Assembly: GCF_003814705.1 (NCBI RefSeq)
Contig: NZ_RKRA01000001.1
Coordinates: 434,001-498,000 of the forward strand
Direction of reading: 5' to 3'
Source: Georgenia muralis
GTDB lineage: Bacteria > Actinomycetota > Actinomycetes > Actinomycetales > Actinomycetaceae
Length of the DNA stretch: 64,000 nucleotides
Shown here: piece by piece, positions 16,079 through 36,999 of the stretch
How positions within the stretch are numbered: the stretch's first letter is position 1
Layout of the letters: each line of letters starts with the position of its first letter
Notes under the pieces: generated by a model
The model's database searches: none
The model's input: only the letters and a program-made list of their open reading frames with translations
What the model was told of the DNA's origin: nothing
Translations under genes and position numbers: made by a program

Positions 16079-16276
16079 CGGGGAAGATCCGGCCGCTCGG
16101 ACCCTTCGACAGCGCACCGGGGAAGATCCGGCCGCTCGGACCCTTCGACAGCGCACCGGGGAAGATCTGGGCACTCGGGACCCCTCGACAGCGCACCGGG
16201 GAAGATCCGGGCGCGCGGGACCCCCTCGACAGCGCACCGGGGAAGATCTGGGCATCGGGTCACTTCCGACGGCGCT
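16079..16276. repeat. Tandem 39-41-nt repeat, five copies
   Basis: Units begin with CGGGGAAGATC at 16079, 16118, 16157, 16197 and 16238. The first two are identical 39-mers, then 40 and 41 nt with small changes, and the last diverges at its end. Every full unit ends TCGACAGCGCAC. There are no unique spacers, so it is not a CRISPR array. Confidence 0.92.
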
Positions 16277-16378
16277 ACGCCGCCGAAACGTCCCCGACGA
16301 TGTCCCCGCTCACGGCGACGCGTCGATCCACCTCGCTCACCGTGGCAGCGAGCGAGAGTACTCGCCATGCCCGCGCTC

Positions 16379-16510
16379 GCGAGCCTGCTCACCTGCCCGC
16401 GGGCGCGAGCCTGCTCACCTGCCCGCGGGCGCGAGCCTGCTCACCTGCCCGCGGGCGCGAGCCTGCTCACCGTGCCCGCGGGCGGGAGCAAGCTCACCGT
16501 GCCCGCGGGC
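16379..16510. repeat. Tandem 26-27-nt repeat, five copies
   Basis: Units begin with GCGAGCCTGCTCACC at 16379, 16405, 16431 and 16457, with a variant at 16484. The first three are identical 26-mers; the last two gain one base (27 nt). Each carries the palindrome GCCCGCGGGC, so the array is a row of evenly spaced small hairpins. Confidence 0.92.
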
Positions 16511-16555
16511 ACTGGGCGGCTCGCCGTGCCCTCGTGCCCGCACACGCGACGGACC

Positions 16556-34535: not shown

Positions 34536-35036
34536 TCACGCCTGCTGCGGCGTGCGGAGTGGCTCGCCGTCGAGGCTGGCTGCCAGGGCCGCCGGCGATG
34601 CGGTGCGGCGGGGCCAGGTCCAGGCGGAGCGCAGGATGAAGGCCAGGATCAGCACCTCGATCCCGATGTGAAGGCCGTAGTAGAAGGCCCAGTCCGCGGA
34701 CGCCCCTGCCGCGTTGAACACCATGACGGGGATGTAGAGCGATGCCACGACGAGGTTCGTGGTGCGGTTCACCCGGGCGGGCAACGCCATGGAGAGCATG
34801 ACCATCAGGGCCGGGATCCCGATGACCACGACGAAGATGGTCATCAACGTCGGGGTGATGTCGAACTCGAAGATGCCGCCACTCCGGATCTGGTCGATGA
34901 CGCCGGGCTGGTAGAGGTGGAAGTAGTCGATGTAGATGACGAAGAACATCAGGCTCGTCCAGGCTGCCGCGAGCTTGGCCGGCAAGGGGACCGGCGGGTT
35001 GTCGAGCAGGTTCGGGGTGTTCGTTCGGATGGTCAT
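34536..35036 (-). CDS. DUF6326 family membrane protein
   Basis: 166 residues with four helices (LMFFVIYIDYFHLYQPGVI, MTIFVVVIGIPALMVMLSMAL, NLVVASLYIPVMVF, GIEVLILAFILRSAWTW). Matches the DUF6326 pattern; function unknown. Downstream of the alcohol-dehydrogenase gene on the same strand with a gap of about 95 nt, so probably under the same TetR control. Confidence 0.8.
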   Translation of the reverse strand: MTIRTNTPNLLDNPPVPLPAKLAAAWTSLMFFVIYIDYFHLYQPGVIDQIRSGGIFEFDITPTLMTIFVVVIGIPALMVMLSMALPARVNRTTNLVVASLYIPVMVFNAAGASADWAFYYGLHIGIEVLILAFILRSAWTWPRRTASPAALAASLDGEPLRTPQQA

Positions 35037-35132: not shown

Positions 35133-36101
35133 TCAGACGGTGACGACGACCTTGCCTCGGGTGTGGCCGGCCCCGACGTAGCGGAGGGCGTCGGCTGCTT
35201 CCTCGAGGGGGTAGGTGCGGTCGATGACGGGCGTGACTCGCCCGGTCGCGAGGAGATCGGCCAGGGTGAGCAGGTCCTGGCGCTTCCCGATCGACGTGAA
35301 GGGCCTCAGCTGCTGACGGGTGAACCCGGACAGGACGCGCGCCTTGAGGATCCGACCGAGGGGGCCGAACCAGCGGCCACCGCGTCCGCTGTTGGGGATG
35401 AGCGTGCCGGTGGGCGTCAGCGCTCGGCGGACATCCGCCAGGGGCTGGACTTCGACGTTGTCGAGGATGACGTCGTAGCGCTTCTCGGTGCGGGTGAAGT
35501 CGGTCGTCGTGTAGTCGACGACGTGGTCGGCACCGAGCGACCGCACCAGGTCGACGTTGCGGGTGCTGCACACACCCGTCACCTCGGCGCCGAAGGCCTT
35601 GGCGATCTGGACGGCGAAGGAGCCGACGCCGCCCGACGCGCCCGTGACCAGCACCGTCTGGCCCGGTCGAACGTTCGCGATGTCGCGCAACGCCTGCAAC
35701 GCCGTCATGGCCGACGTGGGCACGGTCGCCGCTTCCACCACCGACAGGTTGGCGGGCACGGACACGAGATGGCCCGCCGGGACGCAGGCGTACTCCGCGA
35801 GCGTTCCCGCAGTGCTCCAGCCGAACACCTCCTCGTCGGGGCGGAAAGAGGTGACATCCGTCCCGACCGCGGCCACCACGCCGGCGAGGTCCATGCCAGG
35901 GATGCCGTCGCGCGGCCGGCGGAGCCCGAACACCAGGCGCACCATGTACGGCTCACCGGTCATGACGAAGTAGTCGCCGGGATGCACTGAGGCCGCGCCC
36001 ACCTGGACGAGCACATCACCTCGACCGGGCAGCGGTAGCCCGACCTCGGACGACTCGAGCACTGAGGGCGGGCCGTAGCGGTGCTGGACGGCGGCTCGCA
36101 T
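35133..36101 (-). CDS. NAD(P)-dependent zinc-less alcohol dehydrogenase/quinone oxidoreductase
   Basis: 322 residues of the MDR superfamily: GroES-like N-terminal domain (MRAAVQHRYGPPSVLE, GMDLAGVVAAVG), Rossmann motif VLVTGASGGVGSFAVQIAKAFGAEVTGV and C-terminal RTYPLEEAADALRYVGAGHTRGKVVV. No structural zinc cysteines. The start at 36101 gives the conserved N-terminus. Divergent from a TetR regulator across an unusual operator array; probable detoxification of quinones or aldehydes. Confidence 0.9.
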   Translation of the reverse strand: MRAAVQHRYGPPSVLESSEVGLPLPGRGDVLVQVGAASVHPGDYFVMTGEPYMVRLVFGLRRPRDGIPGMDLAGVVAAVGTDVTSFRPDEEVFGWSTAGTLAEYACVPAGHLVSVPANLSVVEAATVPTSAMTALQALRDIANVRPGQTVLVTGASGGVGSFAVQIAKAFGAEVTGVCSTRNVDLVRSLGADHVVDYTTTDFTRTEKRYDVILDNVEVQPLADVRRALTPTGTLIPNSGRGGRWFGPLGRILKARVLSGFTRQQLRPFTSIGKRQDLLTLADLLATGRVTPVIDRTYPLEEAADALRYVGAGHTRGKVVVTV

Positions 36102-36209
36102 CGTCGCCGCCCCGGCCGGACTCGCCCCCCGCCGGCGTGCTCCGGCATTCGAACGCTGTTCGGTTCCCACAGGGGCCTCCTCACATCCGAGCTGCGACCC
36201 TCGCGGCTC

Positions 36210-36287
36210 GTACACCGTACGTCGTACGTCGTACGTCGTACGTCGTACGTCGTACGTCGTACGCTGTACGATGCTCGTACGCTGTAC
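36210..36287. promoter_or_regulatory. Heptad GTAC array (candidate multi-site TetR operator)
   Basis: Nine GTAC tetramers begin exactly 7 nt apart (36210, 36217, 36224, 36231, 36238, 36245, 36252, 36259, 36266), most as GTACGTC units, followed by two more at 36277 and 36284. Every GTACGTCGTAC segment is close to a palindrome. The array fills the gap between the divergent dehydrogenase and TetR genes, ending about 37 nt before the TetR start. Confidence 0.85.
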
Positions 36288-36324
36288 GGTTGTCAAGCCG
36301 TTCGAGGGAGCGAGGAGCTGACCT

Positions 36325-36999
36325 GTGTCCGCGAGGGAACAACGCCAGGTCGCGTCAGACGCGGGGCTGAGCAAGCAGCGTGTGGTGGTCGAGGCTGTCC
36401 GGCTCGCCGACCTCGAGGGGGTCGACGGGCTGAGCATGCGCCGGCTGGCCGGCGCGCTCGGCGCGGGCGCGATGTCGCTCTACCACTACGTGGCGAGCAA
36501 GGAAGAGCTGCTGGACGCCATGATCGACGTCGTGTTCGAGGAGATCGAGCTCCCGCCCGAGGAGACCGACTGGCAGTCGGCGATGCGACGGCGGTCGGCA
36601 TCCGCCCGACAGGTTCTCGCACGCCACCCGTGGGCGATCGGCCTGATGGACTCGCGGACGTCGCCGGGGCCCGCTCACCTCCGCCACCGCGAGGCGGTCA
36701 CCGCCTGCCTGCGGAGAGCCGGCTTCCCGGTTCTGATGGCGACGCACGCCAACTGGTTGCTCGACAGCTATGTCTACGGGTACGCCCTGCAGGAAGCCAG
36801 CCTGCCGTTCGACACCGCCGGTGAGCTCGCGGACATGGTCGAGGACGTCTTCCTGCCCCAGCTTCCTCCTGACGAGTTCCCCTACCTCAACGAGTCCGCA
36901 GCGGCGCTCGTTGCTGCGGGCTACGACCCGACGGAGGAGTTCATGTTCGGCCTCGACCTCGTCCTAGCCGCCCTCGAGCCCCTGAGAGCCTCCGCATAG
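36325..36999 (+). CDS. TetR/AcrR family transcriptional regulator
   Basis: 224 residues. N-terminal HTH: VVEAVRLADLEGVDGLSMRRLAGALGAGAMSLYHYVASKEELLDAMID, a canonical TetR DNA-binding domain; the rest is the TetR_C ligand domain. GTG start at 36325. It probably represses the divergent dehydrogenase-DUF6326 genes and itself by binding the GTAC array. Confidence 0.93.
   Translation: MSAREQRQVASDAGLSKQRVVVEAVRLADLEGVDGLSMRRLAGALGAGAMSLYHYVASKEELLDAMIDVVFEEIELPPEETDWQSAMRRRSASARQVLARHPWAIGLMDSRTSPGPAHLRHREAVTACLRRAGFPVLMATHANWLLDSYVYGYALQEASLPFDTAGELADMVEDVFLPQLPPDEFPYLNESAAALVAAGYDPTEEFMFGLDLVLAALEPLRASA

Follow-up and report, generated by a model that had tools for sequence, protein, structure and literature searches.

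Between the divergent genes of a TetR-family repressor and an oxidoreductase in Georgenia muralis, the tetramer GTAC recurs many times at short and mostly regular distances. Two questions arise from this arrangement: whether the adjacent repressor has its operators in the array, and which of the repeated elements it would use.

The GTAC array and its flanking genes

Exactly 11 GTAC tetramers were counted at positions 36210-36287 of the window, i.e., of the whole analysed stretch of 64,000 nucleotides. Eight 7-bp steps separate the first nine of them, which start at 36210, 36217, 36224, 36231, 36238, 36245, 36252, 36259, and 36266, while the last two start at 36277 (after an 11-bp step) and 36284 (after a 7-bp step), the latter ending the array at 36287. 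The description in the initial annotation (eleven GTAC sites, nine of them spaced by exactly 7 bp, between TetR and dehydrogenase genes) agrees with these counts and coordinates. The spacers are not uniform: ACC is followed by six copies of GTC, by GCT, by a 7-nt gap (GATGCTC), and by a second GCT. Tandem Repeats Finder (TRF) describes the same region as a 7-bp array (36208-36263) or an equivalent 21-bp array (36208-36270). Three GTAC in a row at 7 bp, with at most one mismatch, occur seven times in the window, always at the array, as compared with 0.04 expected from 100 shuffles, and no such 7-bp-spaced triples were found elsewhere in the 4.14-Mb genome, where the reversed control pattern also gave none. 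A chance origin of the array was rejected on these grounds. A coding explanation was rejected as well; mechanical open reading frames cross the array, yet its 7-bp unit is not a multiple of a codon, and both flanking genes have good starts outside it. Elsewhere in the window, positions 16079-16531 contain tandem arrays of 39-bp units (4.4 copies) and 26-bp units (7.5 copies).

On the plus strand, the tetR gene (36325..36999) starts 37 bp past the last GTAC and encodes a 224 aa TetR-family repressor with TetR_N and TetR_C_1 domains, both scoring above the curated cut-offs (34.7 bits vs. 24, and 70.3 bits vs. 21, respectively). Its best relatives in the PDB are ActR (E 8.5e-24) and SimR (E 1.7e-23), and it is presumed to be the protein that binds the array. 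The divergent gene on the minus strand (35133..36170) has a GTG start and the ribosome site GAGGAGG. Its product, a 345 aa zinc-type NAD(P)H/quinone oxidoreductase with ADH_N, ADH_zinc_N, and ADH_zinc_N_2 domains, is presumably encoded by the repressed gene. A gene for a DUF6326 protein (Pfam PF19851) follows on the same strand (34536..35036) and is presumed to be the second gene of the repressed unit. Its assignment to the controlled unit is supported by 26 of 81 related loci, in which the array is followed by a DUF6326 gene of the same orientation and the oxidoreductase gene is missing beside it. Near the array, the DUF6326 gene is more constant (64/81 related loci) than the oxidoreductase gene (46/81).

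Three putative operators on a conserved promoter

A scan of 84,980 genomes yielded 80 orthologous loci with TetR proteins of 83-94% identity, distributed among Micromonosporaceae, Streptosporangiales, Arthrobacter, Agromyces, Kineosporia, and others. One of them, N-masked across the array, was left out; the remaining 79 and the locus of a congener (G005, locus L086, 90% TetR identity) make up the readable set of 80. The idea of a TetR operator, which the initial annotation would have abandoned if the array proved absent from orthologous loci, is not refuted by this comparison: a GTAC array lies just upstream of tetR in 80 of the 80 readable loci and overlaps a conserved promoter. The comparative sequence evidence thus lends good support to the array as the operator region of this repressor. 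The usual layout in the orthologs may be written as 4+2: four tetramers spaced by 7 bp are followed, after 7-8 nt, by another two. Six tetramers are thus the usual number in the 80 loci. Only two of nine genomes of the genus carry the ortholog, and therefore the cassette is probably mobile.

The rules that govern the spacers were derived from 55 canonical relatives, namely loci with exactly six tetramers. In these, spacers 1, 3, and 5 are 3 nt long in all 165 dyads, while spacer 2 is of 2, 4, or 10 nt in 8 of the 55 loci. The spacer type differs in the same manner, with RSY present in 142 of 165 dyads (and RWY in all others) vs. one of 55 linkers; the associated p-value of 1e-31 is inflated, as the loci are related and not independent. 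Since the dyad spacers are fixed in length and of the RSY type and spacer 2 is variable, the functional unit appears to be the dyad GTAC-RSY-GTAC in three copies, with spacer 2 as a linker. Accordingly worded, the conserved cluster would comprise three putative operators joined by linkers that differ in sequence and length. The initial annotation had envisaged a dimer binding in many overlapping registers, and as a conserved design this does not hold, because the relatives have three discrete dyads and variable linkers.

In G. muralis, the putative operator 1 (distal; 36210..36220) reads GTAC-ACC-GTAC and fits GTACRSYGTAC, and operators 2 (36259..36269) and 3 (36277..36287) both read GTAC-GCT-GTAC; none of the three was assigned a strand. 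The pattern GTACRSYGTAC occurs five times in the whole genome, three of them in the array (reversed control: two), and thus the repressor looks like a local one rather than the head of a genome-wide regulon. The RSY rule has exceptions. Operator 1 is of the RSY type in 41 and of the RWY type in 14 of the 55 canonical relatives, the spacer being ATC in many loci of the Nonomuraea group, so that GTC pairs could also bind well. Part of the Nonomuraea-type loci (L012, L014, L016, L017, and others) have the operator of the promoter spacer degraded to GTCCAGCGCAC; in these, intact dyads are present further downstream, and the use of operators in this group is shifted.

The promoter of the oxidoreductase side lies on the minus strand. 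Its -35 element, TTGACA (36291..36296), is conserved in relatives: in the 80 loci in which a TTGAC was found, it reads TTGACA in 73 and TTGACG in five. The predicted -10 element, CATCGT (36268..36273), was placed by alignment at 17 bp from the -35; it is weak, the commonest form among relatives being CATAGT. The 17-bp distance between TTGACA and a CATAGT-like hexamer recurs in most of the loci. A strict consensus promoter scan found nothing at the locus because of this weak -10, and the promoter was recognised by conservation instead. Transcription is expected to start near 36261, inside the array. With respect to this predicted promoter, operator 3 fills the spacer between -35 and -10, operator 2 reaches with its end into the -10, and operator 1 falls within the early part of the transcript.

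A rival reading is that of an RNA element, in which the transcribed array would form a leader hairpin controlling the oxidoreductase. The leader strand does fold at -48.2 kcal/mol (z -3.5), although GTAC is self-complementary and hairpins in such a leader arise automatically. Spacers 1 and 3 exhibit no pairing covariation among relatives (61 of 141 positions complementary vs. a shuffled mean of 61.06), and no Rfam match was found. An RNA leader was therefore rejected as the main explanation, and we regard it as very improbable.

Distant relatives of the repressor support a wider validity of the dyad. GTACN3GTAC is present within 200 bp upstream of the match in nine of 23 distant TetR homologs (31-53% identity), where random stretches from the loci concerned would give about 0.6, and two of these homologs (34-35% identity) have a four-site 7-bp run. 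These data support the view that GTACN3GTAC may serve a broad TetR_C_1 group as its recognition unit, and that the members of this group would differ in the spacer letters. Four-site 7-bp GTAC runs of their own accompany the distant homologs at loci L119 (genome G002), L120 (G004), and L123 (G189), which are divergent to a gene whose product starts with MNIT or similar; the identities of 34-35% refer to those of G002 and G004. Among the other 7-bp GTAC runs of the family, those with mixed spacers (G002, G004, G005, and G189) adjoin TetR homologs, and those with uniform spacers (G001, G006, G027, and G078, as well as G552 of another class) do not. The latter were rejected as operator arrays and assigned as unrelated simple repeats, since no TetR homolog adjoins them. 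Two of them come from congeners: L118 (G001:C3:132220-132300) is a pure (GTACTTG) repeat of about 12 sites, and L122 (G006:C6:122617-122662) a pure (GTACGAG) repeat of about seven. No TetR homolog was detected within about 1.5 kb of either, and both are probably unrelated simple repeats.

Expansion of the linker in Georgenia muralis

The array of G. muralis differs from the usual layout by five extra GTACGTC units (36224-36258, 35 bp), inserted between operators 1 and 2. The expanded linker, with half-sites 3-7 (36221..36258, strand not assigned), corresponds to a single GTC linker in the orthologs, including that of G005, the sole congener with an ortholog, whose spacers follow the ordinary 4+2 order: ACC-GTC-GCT, gap, GCT. 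The 7-bp run has thereby grown from four to nine sites and the leader by 35 nt, and the centres of operators 1 and 2, formerly 14 bp apart, are now separated by 49 bp. All three operators are still RSY dyads, and the extra half-sites have the linker-type GTC spacer and not the dyad-type one. The identity of the units and their 7-bp period fit slippage of a CGTACGTCGTACG seed, which is probably how the expansion arose. The suggestion in the initial annotation that the repeat may expand or contract is borne out as regards expansion, seen in the G. muralis lineage. On this reading, the array would be an operator cluster of a known kind that has undergone a lineage-specific expansion.

The consequences of this expansion can be viewed in several ways. 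We give an even chance to one of them, that the slippage was neutral and the extra units have no measurable effect; the units are uniform and identical, they are confined to one lineage, and the three canonical operators are intact. Operators 1 and 2 are, however, rephased on the helix and the leader is longer, so that zero effect is not assured. Most likely the expansion has little effect; a tuning of repression by it is possible. The extra half-sites may bind the repressor weakly, and the basic switch would not need them.

Rather unlikely is a titration array along the lines of the initial annotation, in which all GTACN3GTAC pairs would be bound in shifting registers, the nine-site run would hold up to four dimers, and the repeat number would tune repression. 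Each 7-bp step does make a GTACN3GTAC pair, operator 1 of the relatives tolerates RWY spacers, and nine half-sites arithmetically fit four non-overlapping dimers. The conserved design, by contrast, has separate dyads, three in number, and linkers whose length is free, site gains in relatives concern mostly whole dyads (L009, L038, L049, and L072), and no comparable run was found in other orthologs, of which the longest (L049) has six sites with dyad-type spacers alternating. Likewise, no other TetR-linked arrays of at least five sites were found among 213 genomes of the family and 396 of the phylum. Even less probable, in our opinion, is that slippage made nine half-sites that are interchangeable within a self-similar lattice, with dimers sliding between registers; were this true, the repeat number would determine how steep and how strong repression is, and the operator would be tunable and evolvable. 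We consider similarly doubtful that the array is a contingency (phase-variation) repeat, whose number would shift often within a species and switch expression. A short, pure 7-bp tandem repeat does overlap the -10 and the early part of the transcript, and the run changed from four to nine sites between congeners. The number of GTAC tetramers is, on the other hand, nearly constant over the 80 orthologous loci; with one genome per species compared, the difference seen is one between species.

The putative switch and known operator systems

Results of our analysis make it highly probable that a divergently encoded TetR_C_1-type repressor has its operator cluster in the array, the cluster being composed of three dyads, with one linker expanded by slippage. 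The direct basis of this reading consists of the anatomy of the array, its conservation, the spacer rules, the promoter position, and the lineage-specific expansion; protein binding, repression, a ligand, and slippage are steps that we infer. Each TetR dimer would recognise one GTAC-RSY-GTAC dyad, and the three operators would cover the promoter from which the oxidoreductase/DUF6326 unit is transcribed. Bound repressor would block RNA polymerase there and probably also limit tetR, its own gene, until a small molecule released it from the operators; promoter occlusion and ligand release are suggested by the TetR family and the anatomy of the locus. In the G. muralis lineage, slippage would have copied the 7-bp linker unit between operators 1 and 2 five more times. 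The operator rule gained, namely three copies of GTAC-RSY-GTAC in a fixed position on a TTGACA promoter, applies to an actinobacterial TetR that is widespread and little studied and that would control an oxidoreductase/DUF6326 unit. The expansion amounts to an experiment of nature, in which half-sites were added and two operators rephased while the three canonical operators stayed intact, and hence the 4-site and 9-site versions are directly comparable.

A close known parallel concerns the Pip repressor, which is released by pristinamycin I and for whose operator the consensus GTACRSYGTAC was reportedly given by Folcher et al. in 2001. Among the two best structural relatives of the TetR described here, ActR of Streptomyces coelicolor is the best sequence match in the PDB, and its target gene is different. 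SimR, the other of the two closest solved structures, is likewise a TetR_C_1-type repressor, and its similarity to the TetR described here is only about 86 bits. SimR of Streptomyces antibioticus acts on two operators between divergent genes (SimR/simX; PMC5812520), and a single dimer of it recognises a 17-bp site (PMC4150764). Unlike in the locus described here, the SimR operators are two separate ones and the target is an efflux pump. In operators of the QacR/CprB type, two overlapping dimers share one long site (PMC4150764), whereas the linkers of variable length in our loci indicate separate dyads rather than an obligatory dimer-of-dimers site.

The Pip-repressed ptr promoter of Streptomyces pristinaespiralis (TetR/Pip-OFF) has three operators (PMC5743821). 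Each of them is built of a 4-bp palindrome that is directly repeated after a 3-bp spacer; two of the operators overlap the -10 and -35, and the third is located 10 nt past the start site (PMC5743821). The dyads found here are of the same build, two direct 4-bp palindromes with a 3-nt spacer in 165 of 165 dyads of the relatives, and the three dyads occupy matching places relative to the predicted -35 and -10, the start here being only a predicted one. Differently from ptr, the putative target is an oxidoreductase/DUF6326 unit, and operators 1 and 2 lie on one 7-bp lattice, with their linker expanded by five units.
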